This document shows positions 10,180 through 19,784 of a DNA stretch of 64,000 nucleotides, one piece after another. Source of the stretch: Candidatus Woesebacteria bacterium (GTDB lineage: Bacteria > Patescibacteriota > Microgenomatia > UBA1406 > GWC2-37-13). Made by a program: the position numbers and the translations under genes. Each line of letters begins with the position of its first letter. The stretch's first letter is position 1. The stretch spans positions 62,001-126,000 of the forward strand of contig JAGQLS010000001.1 in the NCBI GenBank assembly GCA_020429045.1, read 5' to 3'. The notes beneath the pieces are model-generated. The model saw only the letters and a program-made list of their open reading frames with translations, had not been told where the DNA came from and did not search any database.

Positions 10180-11397
10180 ATGAAAAAACCACTTATCGTA
10201 CTTCTGGCAGGGGGGGTTGGCAACAACTTTTTTCCCCTTGCAACCGACAAGACGCTTTTCCCGATTATGGGAAAACTAATGGTTGAGCATGTGCTTGATG
10301 TACTTTCTGCAACAGGTATTGAAGAAGTTGTTGCAGCAACCAATCCTCAAAATGATTCAGTGATAAAACGCCATCCGTTGGTCAAACGCACCGCGCTTCT
10401 CGAAAAACCAACAGGTATGCACGCAGGCATCTTGGCGGTGAAAGACTATATAACCGATCAGTCGATTGTTGTTGTCAATGCCGTCGATTTGATAGAAAAA
10501 GAAGGGTTATCTTCTTTTTTTGCTGCAATTTCTAACCAATACGCCATGATTCTGGGGAAAAAAGTGAATGCTCACCAAGCGGGCGGATACCTTGAGATGT
10601 GCGATGGAAAGGTAAAATCTATTGTCGAAAAGCCAGAAAAGGGAAAAGAGCCAAGCGATATAGTTAATTTAATCGTTCACTACTTCTCCCAACCAAAAAA
10701 GTTTATTTCGCTTCTTGAGGGTGCAGGAGACGTTGACGATGCGTATGAACAAGCGTTTTCGCAAATCATGCAAAATCACGATGTTGCGCTTCATACGTAT
10801 GAAGGTGCGTGGTCTAAACTCAAATATCCATTTCATGTCCTGGATGTTATGGGGCAATTGCTTTCGGGTGTTGAACGATCTATTGCTCCTACAGCACACG
10901 TATCCGAGCACGCGGTCATCGAAGGCGCAGTCGTAATTGCCGATAATGCTATCGTCGATGAATTTGCTGTTGTTAAAGGTCCCGCCTATATCGGCAACGG
11001 TGCGCGCGTAGGCAATCATGCATTAGTCCGCCAATCCGTGGTAGAAAAGGCCGCGATAGTCGGTTTTGGCAGCGAAGTGGTGCGCAGCTATGTTGGTCCG
11101 GGGTGTATGCTGCACCACAATTATGTTGGCGATTCTGTTCTTGAAAAAAATGTCAACCCAAGCTGGGGTACGACAACGGCCAATTATCGCTTGGACAAGA
11201 AACATGTCATGCTCAAACTACCAGATGGTAAAACAATAGATACGCAACGTGAAAAGTTTGGCTGTATCATGGCGGAAGGTGTTTTCTGCGGTGTAAATTG
11301 TTCAATCATGCCGGGTGTCACGATTAAAAAAAATGCACAAATCTATCCGGGGAAAGTCATCCCAAATGTAGTGAAAGAGGATGAGGTTGTGAAATAA
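10180..11397 (+). CDS. GlmU-like sugar nucleotidyltransferase/beta-helix protein with altered signature
   Basis: The N-terminal ~220 residues have the nucleotidyltransferase fold (PLIVLLAGGVGNNFFPLA, FPIMGKLMVEHVLD, VVVNAVDLIE). The rest is a left-handed beta-helix with hexapeptides (AHVSEHAVIEGAVVIADNA) and an acetyltransferase-like VNPSWGTTTANYRLD, as in archaeal-type bifunctional GlmU. The signature arginine of GGxGxRxxP is replaced (GVGNNFFPL). Either nucleotidyl transfer is impaired or a different residue serves. UDP-GlcNAc supply for the Mur pathway is the likely context, next to yvcK, but the reaction is not certain. It converges with the frameshifted glycosyltransferase. Confidence 0.75.
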   Translation: MKKPLIVLLAGGVGNNFFPLATDKTLFPIMGKLMVEHVLDVLSATGIEEVVAATNPQNDSVIKRHPLVKRTALLEKPTGMHAGILAVKDYITDQSIVVVNAVDLIEKEGLSSFFAAISNQYAMILGKKVNAHQAGGYLEMCDGKVKSIVEKPEKGKEPSDIVNLIVHYFSQPKKFISLLEGAGDVDDAYEQAFSQIMQNHDVALHTYEGAWSKLKYPFHVLDVMGQLLSGVERSIAPTAHVSEHAVIEGAVVIADNAIVDEFAVVKGPAYIGNGARVGNHALVRQSVVEKAAIVGFGSEVVRSYVGPGCMLHHNYVGDSVLEKNVNPSWGTTTANYRLDKKHVMLKLPDGKTIDTQREKFGCIMAEGVFCGVNCSIMPGVTIKKNAQIYPGKVIPNVVKEDEVVK

Positions 11398-12768
11398 TCA
11401 CTTTTCAAATCCAATAATCTTTATGTCGTCAATTGTCGTTTCGAACAGTACCGTATCTCCTTTCGCTTGTTCAATCTCCCATGAAGACCATCTGCGCCAA
11501 TCAAAATTATCAGCTTCAACAAACATGAGCAACACGTCCGCATCAATATATTGCTGAGTATCTAAGACATTGTAACCTTTCATACGTAGGAAGTAGCGAT
11601 AATCATCTGCCTGAGGAACACTTGTATCGCTTGTGAGTGCAGCCACCACGGCAATTTTCTTCTCAGGAGAAATTCTTCTGCTTTCATCAAACTGAGAAAT
11701 GATAGATGCAATCTTACTAATCGGCCGTATTGTGGGTGTCTCATGAACATAGCTCCGCACTGTCGAACAGATTGTAAGAATAGTAACAATCCCAAGCACA
11801 GAACGAAGTAAAGTATGCTTTATAAAGACAATTACGACAACAAACCAAATGACACACATCATTCCCAAAAGATAATGATTTCGCAACGAATGAGTAATGA
11901 CAAGAAAAAAATTGAAGGAAGTGTGAGGAAATACCAATTCCTGACTCGTTTTCTTGATATAAGTCCTGCCAAACAATATGAAAAGAAACTCAGTAAAATC
12001 GGTATTTGAAACTGAGCGCTTATTGCATAAAGATTATTCAGACTAGGAAGAAACGACATCCCCATTTCAGTATTTTCCTTCCAATGTTTGATGATATATC
12101 CATGTGTAATAATTTCAAATGCAAGTACCGGAGCCCATGGTAATACAAGTGCTAGACATATAATGAGGAAGTTTTTAAATAGATACTTGGAGCGCCACCA
12201 TTCATAAATAAAAAAAACTAATGCAAAAATTGCAGCTGGATGATACGAAACAGCAACACCAAGTACAAATGCCCCAAGAAGAATTCTTTTGTGAAACCAG
12301 AGCAATGTAAGAGCCAACAATACGTACAAGCCATATGTGTAGCCATTCCCTGGGTGTATTGCCATCGTCACAAACCAAGGAGATGATGCTAGAAGTGCTG
12401 CCGGAACAAGGCCCCAAAACCCATACGTTTTGTAAGTTGCGTAGGTAAAAAATCCTAATACGATTATTGCAAGGAAGACCGTCGTAGCAACTATAGAAAG
12501 CGCATTTCCTCTCGTAAGCCAAACACCAGGAAATAAAATATAGTAGTAAAGTGGACTGGCATGAAGGCCAGGACTTAACCGGGGTCCCAACCACACATAA
12601 CGATTCTTCCAAACGTTCGATATTTCATAAAGATCTCGTGCTAGATCAGTATCCAGAAATAAAAAACGAGTGCCCAAAAAAAAAATAGAGAAGACCCACA
12701 AGAATCAGTGCAAAAACAAGGAACCTGAGAAAGAGCTTATTCTTCACAATACGATTTTTAATATTCAT
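11398..12768 (-). pseudogene. GT39/ArnT-like membrane glycosyltransferase, frame broken at two homopolymer runs
   Basis: Six bases after the murA stop, ATG 12768 starts MNIKNRIVKNKLFL plus a membrane helix. The frame breaks at T10 (A10 at 12676-12685). A +1 shift continues into FLGTRFLFLDTDLARDLY, HASPLYYYILF and a multi-helix GT39-type body. That frame ends at 11859. A -1 shift, most simply at T7 (A7 at 11905-11911), continues into LRNHYLLG and a soluble C-terminus ending at 11398. RxHYLL is typical of the last third of ArnT/PMT-type enzymes, which supports one original gene of about 456 residues. It would move a sugar from a polyprenyl-phosphate donor. Phase variation, decay or sequence error are all possible. 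Confidence 0.7.
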
Positions 12769-12774
12769 ACCCTG

Positions 12775-14100
12775 TTACAAAGATCGTATTTCCCCACCAA
12801 GACTCGTAATCTTTTCAACAAAATCTTCGTATCCGCGTTCAAGATGATGAATACCGTTTAAATACGACTGGCCACACGCAACAAGCGCAGCAACCGCAAG
12901 AGTAGCTCCTGCTCGCAAGTCGGCAACTTCAAGGACTCCTCCGTGTAGTTCGTGCCCTCCTACAATCTCTATGGTTTGTTGATATTCTTTGTGTGGTTGG
13001 TAATTGAAATGATAGTGTTTCTGAGGATTTTCTATTTTTTTCTCAATGAAAGAAATATGCGCGCCCAATTTTTTGAGTTCGCTCACATAGCTAAACCTGT
13101 TTTCATAAATTCGCTCGTGAATCGACGATGTCCCTTGTGCCTGTGTGAGAAGTACTGCCATGAGCGGTTGCCAATCGGTACTAAACCCAGGGAAAGGAGC
13201 AGTCTCAAGATTGATAGCCGTAAGAGGTTTGTCGTAGTAAAACCGATGAGTAAACTCGTCGATGTGCTCCACACCGCCGCCTGCTTCTTTGATTTTTTCG
13301 ACAAACGCATACATAAACGGATATGCGATGGAAGAAATAGTTACATCTCCTTGAGTAGCAATCGCAGCAACAGCATATGTCGCGGCCTCGATACGATCGG
13401 AGGTAAGGGTGTGTGGTTTGTCTTGAACCAACTTTTTGACACCGTGAATAATGATAGAATTTTCTCGGCGATGGATATCTGCACCGGCATCCGTGAGAAA
13501 AGTAATAAGATTATCAATTTCTGGTTCTTGCGCGGCATTTTCAATAGTAACTTCCTCGCCGCCAAAGACCGACATCATGATGAGGAGCTCCGTACCCGTG
13601 TGCGACGGTTTGACAAAGCGATACGTCCCGCTCGGCTTTTCTTTCATCACGGCGTGATAATACCCCGTTTCTGAATCGTAGGAGACTTGTATACCAAGCG
13701 CCTTGAGACCGTCGACGATGCGGTCTATGGGTCGGGCGCCAAGTCGACACCCGCCAGGATTAGGGATGTAAGCTTCACCAAATTTGTACAAAAGTGGTGC
13801 AAAAAGAAGGAATGATGCACGGATTTTGGAAGCAGCCAGCAAGTCGACCTTGTTGGTAGAAAGACCTGAAGGATCGATGACTACGGTATGCTTTTCAATA
13901 AACTCTGCTTTTACCCCAAGACTTTTGAGAATTTCAAGCAAATTATGTATGTCTTCGATGCGGGGAACATTGTGCACTGTCACCGTGCCTTCAAAAAGAA
14001 GTGCGGCAAATAATACTTTTAGCGCGTTGTTTTTTGCACCGGAAAGGGTTATCGTACCTTTCAAGGGTTTTGCGCCGGTGATAATAAACGTATTTTCCAT
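12775..14100 (-). CDS. murA: UDP-GlcNAc 1-carboxyvinyltransferase
   Basis: MurA commits UDP-GlcNAc to peptidoglycan by adding enolpyruvate. SGAKNNALK holds the catalytic Lys-Asn near residue 23. PGGCRLGARPID holds the loop cysteine that fosfomycin alkylates, KIRASFLLFAPLL the conserved Arg, and FSTDWQPLMAVLLTQAQG the catalytic Asp, with YENRF following. I chose ATG 14100 (MENTFIITG, 441 residues), since the family begins there; an upstream in-frame extension to 14160 has no family match. The gene lies downstream of murB on the same strand (95-base gap) and directly upstream of the broken GT39 gene. Confidence 0.95.
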   Translation of the reverse strand: MENTFIITGAKPLKGTITLSGAKNNALKVLFAALLFEGTVTVHNVPRIEDIHNLLEILKSLGVKAEFIEKHTVVIDPSGLSTNKVDLLAASKIRASFLLFAPLLYKFGEAYIPNPGGCRLGARPIDRIVDGLKALGIQVSYDSETGYYHAVMKEKPSGTYRFVKPSHTGTELLIMMSVFGGEEVTIENAAQEPEIDNLITFLTDAGADIHRRENSIIIHGVKKLVQDKPHTLTSDRIEAATYAVAAIATQGDVTISSIAYPFMYAFVEKIKEAGGGVEHIDEFTHRFYYDKPLTAINLETAPFPGFSTDWQPLMAVLLTQAQGTSSIHERIYENRFSYVSELKKLGAHISFIEKKIENPQKHYHFNYQPHKEYQQTIEIVGGHELHGGVLEVADLRAGATLAVAALVACGQSYLNGIHHLERGYEDFVEKITSLGGEIRSL

Positions 14101-14195
14101 AAAATGTGTTTTGTGATGAAATGTACGTGCCGATTTTCCATCAACCTTCAAATTAACCATTTTCGCTTCCGAATTGATAATCTATGCCGGTTTGC

Positions 14196-17610: not shown

Positions 17611-18852
17611 TCAGTCTCTTTGCTTCAATGCCTTCTCTACCGCTTCGTGCTCACTCCAATCATACTCCTTCTTTTCACGACACAAACTCTTTTCGTGTCC
17701 CTTCCCCGTCAACACAAGCACATCATTCTTTTTTGCCACCTCAATCGCCTTTTGTATCGCCTCTCCCCTATCTACGATGACGGAGTATGTTCTACTCTTC
17801 TTCCCAAACTCATGTGCAGCAACAGAGGAAAATCCCTTCTTTTTGAGGCCAACAGCAATCTGCTCGCAAATCTCGTTCGGGTCCTCGGTGCGATAATCTT
17901 CCTCGGTTAATAGCGTAAGATCTGCGTATGTACCGCTTTCTCTGCCCATCATGGGCCGTTTTGTATTATCGCGCAACGCTGCAGCACCAAACACATGGAT
18001 CAATCGTCGCCCAGGATACAGCTTTTTTATGGACGCCAACGCCTGATGTAAACCATTGGGTGTATGCGCAAAATCGATAATCACGGTAAAATCCTTGTCG
18101 TAGACTACTTCGAGTCTACCTATTGGAAGAGTATAGCTATTCATCGCATCAAAAATTTGCCTGTCTGTGAGTCCGCACTCTCTACACAGCGCGTATGCCG
18201 CCAAATAGTTATATTTATTAAATTCTGCAATCGGACGACGTAGTTTTTGAGAAACATCAAGTTGGTAATCAGCTTTACCCTTCAAACCATACGTTGCGAC
18301 TTTTTTTTCAGCTTTTCGATTCACAAGAAACTCAGAAAGCTGGGAAAACGATGCGTCATCTACATTGATAAACCCTTTTTCAGAATACAAAACGATATGC
18401 GCCTTGGCTTTGAGGTAATTTTTGTAGGTGAAGTGGTCGAAAAGGTGCTCGTGGGTGATGTTGGTGATTGCGGTTACCACATACTGCACACCCCACACGC
18501 GATACTGATCCAAAGCATGAGAGGTGGTTTCCAGCACAAAATATTCGTCCCCATAGTCTACCGCCTTACGAAGAAATTTTTGAATGGTGAACGCGTCTGG
18601 GGTGGTCACATGAAAACCAGTATCGTATTTTTTCCCCGCGATGTATGCAAGGTTTGTAGAAATAACAGATGTTTTTTTATGCGCCGATTTGAGGATGTGG
18701 TGCACGAGTAGTGTAGTGGTTGTTTTCCCATCGGTGCCGGTTATGCCGATAACTTTGATTTTCCGGCTGGGCCAGCCGTAATACAGATTCGCTATAATCG
18801 CAACAAAAAAGTGATATATGTTTTTTATCCGTTGAACGTAATAGCGAACCAT
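17611..18852 (-). CDS. murE: MurE-type UDP-MurNAc-tripeptide ligase lacking the N-terminal domain
   Basis: This adds the third residue of the stem peptide. The central domain starts almost at once with VIGITGTDGKTTTT (residues ~34-47). LETTSHALDQ, NITHEHLFDHF, the carbamylated-lysine region (YLKAKAHIV) and NKYNYLAAYA follow. In the C-terminal domain are IDFAHTPNGLHQAL, a substrate motif EDYRTEDP where E. coli has DNPR, and TGKGHE. Only ~33 residues precede the ATP loop, so the usual N-terminal UDP-sugar domain is missing and replaced by a short aromatic segment. The third amino acid cannot be assigned. The cupin gene ends four bases upstream of its start. Confidence 0.87.
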   Translation of the reverse strand: MVRYYVQRIKNIYHFFVAIIANLYYGWPSRKIKVIGITGTDGKTTTTLLVHHILKSAHKKTSVISTNLAYIAGKKYDTGFHVTTPDAFTIQKFLRKAVDYGDEYFVLETTSHALDQYRVWGVQYVVTAITNITHEHLFDHFTYKNYLKAKAHIVLYSEKGFINVDDASFSQLSEFLVNRKAEKKVATYGLKGKADYQLDVSQKLRRPIAEFNKYNYLAAYALCRECGLTDRQIFDAMNSYTLPIGRLEVVYDKDFTVIIDFAHTPNGLHQALASIKKLYPGRRLIHVFGAAALRDNTKRPMMGRESGTYADLTLLTEEDYRTEDPNEICEQIAVGLKKKGFSSVAAHEFGKKSRTYSVIVDRGEAIQKAIEVAKKNDVLVLTGKGHEKSLCREKKEYDWSEHEAVEKALKQRD

Positions 18853-18855
18853 AGA

Positions 18856-19239
18856 TTATATGAGTGTAATTTTTTGAACATCTTGCATTGGCCCATCTGC
18901 AAATTCGATAAGCGGTAACGGTTTTTTGGAATTATTGAAAACAGCGTGGGGCACCATGGGAGCAATGGTAAAAATACATAGATTTCCGTCAGATTTCATT
19001 GGAAGCTTTTTGATAGTCCCCTTTTCTTGAAAAATCAATTCGAGACCTTCTTCTGGTGCGAAAAAGGCTTCAATCCGCGGATGTTTGTGATTTCCTCCAG
19101 CAACGCCAGGTGGTATGTAGATAACGTTTGTTTCTTTGACAACAAAATCAATGTGCTGGATGATGTCATGAACGTGCAAGACCCACAAACCGCTCTGCCG
19201 TGCGTACGATGGTTTGATAATTTTTTGTGTTATGCTCAC
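18856..19239 (-). CDS. Small cupin-domain protein
   Basis: At 127 residues, cupin motif 1 appears as VAGGNHKHPRIEAFF (two His and a Glu) and motif 2 as APMVPHAVFNNS (third His), so a metal site is possible. The sequence resembles sugar-epimerase-like or WxcM-like cupins, but no substrate can be assigned. The start overlaps the stop of the upstream hydrolase gene by four bases (ATGA), and murE begins four bases downstream. The three are therefore almost certainly co-transcribed. Confidence 0.72.
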   Translation of the reverse strand: MSITQKIIKPSYARQSGLWVLHVHDIIQHIDFVVKETNVIYIPPGVAGGNHKHPRIEAFFAPEEGLELIFQEKGTIKKLPMKSDGNLCIFTIAPMVPHAVFNNSKKPLPLIEFADGPMQDVQKITLI

Positions 19240-19784
19240 TCTTTTCGTAAAAAATTCTCAACAACCATTACGATTTCTGGGAATTCGGTTTTATTTACAT
19301 CTGAGCCAAAATGACCTTCGTCGTTATATTCGTGGTATTCGGCTTCAAGTTGATCTTTGATATGGCGCGGCTCAGAAATAGAAATATACGGATCATTTTT
19401 TGAAGCGAAAATACAAATTTTTTTTGCATTCTTTTTAATTGCTTCCCAATTCCATGGTTCATCGTAATATCCACTTTTTTTCTCACTTTCTAATCCAAGA
19501 TCGGTATAACAAACGCCTACCAATATCGCTAACTTTGCTTTGTGTTCTTCAAGATAGCGCATAATTGCAACTGCACCAGACGAATGTCCGATTAAAATCG
19601 CTTCTTCAGTCTTTAGCTTTTTTTCAATAAAGGGAAGCCAATATGATTTGCGTGCGAGCTCCGGATCGGGCATGTCTTCTGCAATCACTTCAAGACCACG
19701 TGCCAATAATCGCCTTTTGACATATGGAAACCAATTATCGCTAATTGGTGTGTTTCCGTTGCCTGGAATAATGATCGCTTTCAT
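19236..19784 (-). CDS. RBBP9/YdeN-like serine hydrolase
   Basis: This 182-residue alpha/beta hydrolase begins AIIIPGNGNTPISDNWFP, as in RBBP9 proteins. It has the nucleophile elbow LIGHSSGAVA, an acidic residue in FASKNDPYIS and the catalytic histidine in NDEGHFGSD. The triad is complete. The natural substrate of this family is generally unknown. It lies 7 bases after the class B PBP stop and overlaps the cupin gene, so it probably belongs to one long operon with ftsI and murE. Confidence 0.85.
   Translation of the reverse strand: MKAIIIPGNGNTPISDNWFPYVKRRLLARGLEVIAEDMPDPELARKSYWLPFIEKKLKTEEAILIGHSSGAVAIMRYLEEHKAKLAILVGVCYTDLGLESEKKSGYYDEPWNWEAIKKNAKKICIFASKNDPYISISEPRHIKDQLEAEYHEYNDEGHFGSDVNKTEFPEIVMVVENFLRKE

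Follow-up and report, generated by a model that had tools for sequence, protein, structure and literature searches.

The broken sugar-transferase gene downstream of murA in the 64-kb window (the window being the whole stretch of DNA analysed here) looks like a fairly ordinary case of an acquired gene that is being lost, and not like a surface switch. On balance, we favour the interpretation that it is an acquired GT-C glycosyltransferase gene that has become a young, decaying pseudogene. Homopolymer frame breaks in a metagenome-assembled genome (MAG) invite a reading as phase variation, and the case calls for caution in this respect: synteny, the orthologues and a run-by-run control within the same assembly point to an accessory glycosyltransferase that was gained and is at an early stage of being lost.

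Locus and gene layout

Contig 11 of a 1.19-Mb genome, assembled in 58 contigs and estimated to be 95 % complete, contains the window. The G+C content of the window is 42 %, and the AT-richness of the genome is moderate. The closest named relatives with a homologue of the broken gene are Candidatus Roizmanbacteria MAGs. On the minus strand, three overlapping open pieces occupy the space between murA and a GlmU-like gene (Table 1). The N-terminal piece begins with an ATG at 12768, 6 bases past the murA stop codon, and the C-terminal piece runs up to the stop codon of the GlmU-like gene. The second frame is open from 12704 to 11862, and the frame of the C-terminal piece, which is the first frame again, from 12033 to 11401.

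Table 1. Features of the broken gene and its neighbours (positions in the window)
Feature	Position	Strand	Description
murA	12775..14160	-	Intact; upstream neighbour of the broken gene
N-terminal piece, first frame	12686..12768	-	Start of the glycosyltransferase gene; carries a basic stretch and the first membrane helix
T10 run on the coding strand (A10 on +)	12676..12685	-	First frame break, in the +1 direction, lies at or near this run
Middle piece, second frame	11912..12675	-	Motifs DTDLARD (GT-C-like first loop), LGPRLSPG...SPLYYY and HPGNGYTY
T7 run on the coding strand (A7 on +)	11905..11911	-	U_UUU_UUC in the middle frame; plausible site of the second break, -1 direction
ATGA overlap	11859..11862	-	Middle-frame stop (11861-11859) and C-terminal-frame ATG (11862-11860)
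C-terminal piece, first frame again	11398..11904	-	Holds the final membrane helices and a soluble domain in which PQADDYRYFLRMKGY and SWE occur
GlmU-like sugar nucleotidylyltransferase/acetyltransferase	10180..11397	+	Intact, convergent; its end abuts the end of the broken gene

Three pieces of one gene

The original prediction described a single gene after murA with two frame breaks, and profile scores, shuffles and a codon model together confirm this. Against a reference profile built from four orthologues (L020-L023), scores were 218 bits for the middle piece and 155 for the C-terminal one, which makes the second break firm. With the N-terminal piece added, the pieces taken together rose from 390 to 399 bits (8.7 bits more than a TTG start at 12701), and 199/200 composition-preserving shuffles of this piece scored below the real one. 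The codon model favoured the claimed frame in each of the three pieces, giving the N-terminal piece 0.016 per base in its own frame vs -0.19 and -0.21 in the other two. The first break is thus supported well, less strongly than the second. Read in the right frame, no piece contains an interrupting stop codon. Distant homologues hinted that the second break might be a deletion of several bases; this was rejected, as the closer orthologues align across it gap-free.

Homologues of the gene in relatives encode approximately 450-520 residues. In the four family-level relatives that supplied the profile, L020 to L023, the open frames span 379, 453, 467 and 414 residues, respectively (the first being truncated where its contig stops), and match across the pieces of the window gene without its breaks. 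The two larger pieces show 40 and 37 % identity to L021; a second alignment gave 41 % for each of them against L071, the twin of L021. L023 (L023:763-2004; also L072) lacks approximately 39 internal residues relative to its close relative L021, with the frame kept. A first contig scan with the window piece found no relative. The wider set comprised 22 homologues, omitting L018 and L032 (short hits with stops), L014-L017 (weaker or differently built) and L031 (the same gene as L023); one alignment (A4) took 17 of the 22.

Homology pins neither break to its run, leaving T10 and T7 as plausible, not proven, break sites. For the first break, crossovers anywhere from approximately 12702 to 12654, a stretch of about 50 bases, differ by only about 1 bit in score. 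The second break is placed best at crossovers 8-30 bases past T7, which score about 3 bits above T7 itself. The original prediction had placed both breaks at long homopolymers. The part that stands is that the first lies at or near an exceptional run: no other A/T run in the window is as long as T10, which makes it the only one of at least 10 there, vs approximately 2.6 expected from dinucleotide frequencies. T7 is ordinary, runs of exactly 7 being common (84 in the window and 332 in a 284-kb sample of the genome).

A putative GT-C-like membrane protein

A membrane glycosyltransferase-like product, as originally proposed, is consistent with matches to GT-C folds, whereas the more specific GT39 label found no backing in Pfam or NCBIfam, in which an unbroken orthologue had no match. 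Neither the two larger pieces nor orthologues L021 and L022 matched the PMT family (PF02366, PF13231), and weak PMT_2 matches were returned for 5/17 wider homologues at E values up to 0.1 (best 2.8e-5). Comparing profiles with a PMT_2 paralogue from the host genome gave a probability of 1.3 %, and neither this nor a sequence search against solved structures yielded anything useful. The structural model of orthologue L071, built from five sequences, is of low confidence (mean pLDDT 57), and its four best PDB matches were ALG12, ArnT (two entries) and an oligosaccharyltransferase (TMq 0.40-0.54), all of which we take to be GT-C enzymes. In GT-C glycosyltransferases, the first extracytoplasmic loop features an acidic residue; D42, R45 and D46 are invariant in 17 homologues and appear in the middle piece within DTDLARD, which has such a residue. 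The likeness of the unbroken orthologue to the ArnT and ALG12 transferases (PDB 5f15, 5ezm, 9s6t) comes from the fold search only; unlike a recognised family member, it shares 11-13 % identity with them and no sequence-family match. We infer that the intact protein would have been a polyprenyl-phosphate-sugar-dependent transferase for surface glycans.

Probable acquisition at the murA/glmU junction

We examined 30 murA loci among the matches listed, the window's own and 29 in relatives, and the glycosyltransferase gene follows murA only in the window. The GlmU-like gene is present at 28/30 of these loci, and in L075, L077, L078 and L101 it is convergent and lies 10-32 bases past murA with nothing between. 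As all 29 relative junctions are without the glycosyltransferase gene, it was most simply inserted at the murA/glmU junction in the host lineage. No second copy or intact paralogue of its family was found in the host genome. Two further relatives (L076 and L079) carry other small ORFs past murA, one of which, in L076, is GIY-YIG-like by eye; the junction seems to accept insertions.

Homopolymer runs and the assembly

The gene could be intact in the organism, the assembly or consensus being wrong at both places (e.g. through mixed strains). In favour of an artefact, each break is of the kind that one base would cause, no further stops interrupt the pieces, and housekeeping genes are badly broken in some MAGs of the family. 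In one of these, G004 (99 % complete), murA was matched in six pieces in different frames (contig 4, 67654-69039, and contig 2), which suggests either an assembly rich in frame errors or a decayed copy.

A run census, together with the other two runs of at least 10, spoke against homopolymer error as a general property of the assembly. The 284-kb sample consisted of the window and eleven 20-kb stretches (approximately 24 % of the genome), some of them picked for glycosyltransferase genes, and held 148 long runs (A/T of at least 8, G/C of at least 7). Of these, 101 lie inside a single unbroken coding segment, with lengths 10 and 16 included, and the other 47 fall where segments end, in stretches left unscored or within the broken gene; 244 of the 332 exact 7-runs likewise lie inside unbroken coding segments. 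The whole 1.19-Mb genome has three A/T runs of at least 10, and the frame is kept at both runs other than T10, one of 10 in what is presumably a ThiF-like gene and one of 16 in a presumed cysS, names that we assigned from sequence. Since 101/148 long runs sit in unbroken segments and the other runs of at least 10 are in frame, a general homopolymer problem is unlikely. The 16-base run, the longest A/T run of the genome, sits in an essential gene: it is a run of 16 A on the coding strand of cysS (contig 55; L068:14715-14730), in frame and just before KMSKS.

The suggested sequence artefact is thus unlikely as a general explanation, while an isolated error is possible. Two independent errors in one accessory gene are improbable when the other sampled run-bearing genes are mostly unbroken, and errors at the two breaks would not explain the substitutions at family-invariant residues described below. 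We consider an intact gene behind a faulty consensus unlikely, if still worth keeping in mind.

A proposed but improbable switch at T10

The original prediction put forward phase variation as one of its two readings. Slippage in T10 (and T7) would then reversibly toggle a surface glycan, and the genome would have been caught in the OFF state. Membrane glycosyltransferases are a gene class typical for phase variation, which speaks for such a switch, and T10, one of the genome's three longest A/T runs, lies near the 5' end of the gene. Reversible poly-A/T switches near 5' ends are known, e.g. in inlA (PMC2831843, in excerpt), with which the window gene shares a long 5' tract, a frame break at or near that tract and a surface-type gene; it differs from inlA, as described in that excerpt, in that its orthologues lack the tract and a second break is present.

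The second break weighs against a switch. The breaks are in different places, such that no single change in tract length can restore the whole frame, and an ON state would need both to be right together. The 7-run at or next to the second break is an ordinary one. Comparison of the tract length in relatives, as originally advised, gave no support either: the three readable orthologues (L020, L021 and L023) have no T run of at least 6 at the place of T10 among each one's five longest runs (L022 is masked there), and the longest run anywhere among the 22 homologues is 9. G/C runs of at least 8 are absent from the 284-kb sample. Two breaks, the lack of a tract in the readable orthologues and the lack of such G/C runs argue against an evolved phase-variation device, which we regard as improbable. 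At least as improbable, in our estimation, is that T10 in the acquired GT-C gene, in a bacterium without MutS, acts as a slippage switch or leak, at the DNA or RNA level, that would give heterogeneous surface glycans from a gene that looks dead in the assembly. If T10 were truly variable, a member of the Candidate Phyla Radiation would possess a homopolymer switch. Our literature searches turned up no paper on homopolymers and phase variation in Patescibacteria, nor on frameshifts and pseudogenes in that group; the literature on Candidate Phyla Radiation and phase variation led to PMC6851277, which, in the part available, concerns a hypervariable gene with a repeat region.

Some enzyme might also be made from the broken gene through slippage of RNA polymerase on T10 together with slippage of the ribosome or polymerase on U_UUU_UUC, or through re-initiation of the C-terminal part at the ATGA overlap. 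The length of T10 would suffice for transcriptional slippage of the kind that an excerpt of PMC3017870 proposes for homopolymer frameshifts in Blochmannia, and bypass rises with run length (PMC3812077, in excerpt). The slippery heptamer is in the right (middle) frame, and the ATGA overlap is present. Such rescue is nonetheless highly improbable: no stable RNA structure that could stimulate it was found past T7 (z -0.08), the relatives have plain single open frames with nothing conserved, and the low efficiencies of two events would multiply.

Probable loss of the gene

The frame of the window gene is disrupted relative to its unbroken relatives, as is usual for a pseudogene. In a set of the 22 homologues and the window gene (in which L021 and L023 are near-duplicates and L022 has masked residues), the window gene has lost 2/18 residues that are invariant in all other homologues, while the other 22 sequences each lose 0 or 1, and its tip branch is the longest in the tree (0.85; next 0.65). 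In the codon model, its middle piece ranks second lowest among 151 ORFs.

Two more GT-C genes are broken in the same genome, namely a DUF2079 and a PMT gene on contig 1 (L065:15491-16928 and 17819-19505), in a region rich in PMT_2 genes. The DUF2079 gene has a simple frame break, its halves covering positions 1-147 and 147-452 of the profile, and the PMT gene has approximately 30 residues fewer than a paralogue together with a frame change. By inspection, neither is broken at a long homopolymer, which also tells against phase variation. Because these two genes are broken alongside the window gene, gene loss in the GT-C class is under way in the host genome. A codon-model search for frame breaks returned 51 same-strand switches, comprising 47 ordinary junctions (ATG rule), 3 weak switches and 1 candidate; on inspection, 2/3 weak switches were ordinary gene junctions, and the third and the candidate were the contig 1 PMT and DUF2079 genes. 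The codon model scored the broken window gene as non-coding and is therefore insensitive to atypical genes. The impression that only GT-C genes are broken is biased, as the stretches were partly chosen for glycosyltransferase genes and the codon-model census missed the window gene.

The MutS_V profile had no match in the host genome (control genomes were positive in 11/14 cases), which would make slips in T10 likelier and is also a point in favour of phase variation. Absence of MutS and MutL has been reported for Saccharibacteria too, according to an excerpt of PMC8406219.

Absence of the gene from the junction in relatives, the lack of a second copy, the lost invariant residues, the long tip branch and the two other broken GT-C genes together favour recent gain followed by loss. 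There are observations on the other side. With 16/18 invariant residues kept, the gene is close to normal; at a 90 % threshold it keeps 25/30 residues (0.83), no worse than unbroken members of the family (L022 and L025, 0.76 each); and the long branch may mean a distant paralogue. Since the pieces have no interrupting stops, any decay must be very recent. Additional random stop codons had been named as the mark of simple decay; none were found, and recent decay is still the reading that we prefer.

Under recent gain and loss, a lineage-specific GT-C gene would have been inserted into the convergent murA/glmU-like junction, downstream of murB-murA, in a Roizmanbacteria-like genome. The first lesion was plausibly a replication slip in T10, in a genome that shows no MutS. 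With the protein lost, a second lesion at or just past T7 would have been tolerated and two family-invariant residues replaced. The expected product now would be a peptide of approximately 40 residues that ends soon after the first membrane helix, with no transferase made.

The window gene resembles pseudogenes of the GeneTack survey of prokaryotic 'reading frame transitions', which reports 4010 pseudogene clusters (PMC3711429, in excerpt), in that its breaks lie near poly-A/T runs of at least 7 in an otherwise open gene; unlike the survey cases, as that excerpt presents them, it has two breaks and its relatives are unbroken. It is also reminiscent of Blochmannia, where a small genome has A/T-run frameshifts in genes that show no other degradation. 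The genes in the excerpted Blochmannia report (PMC3017870) have a single break each and are treated as rescuable, whereas the window gene has two, in a window of 42 % G+C.

At L037:3531-4416, several T8-T9 runs fall within a series of short overlapping ORFs, which may be another decayed gene.
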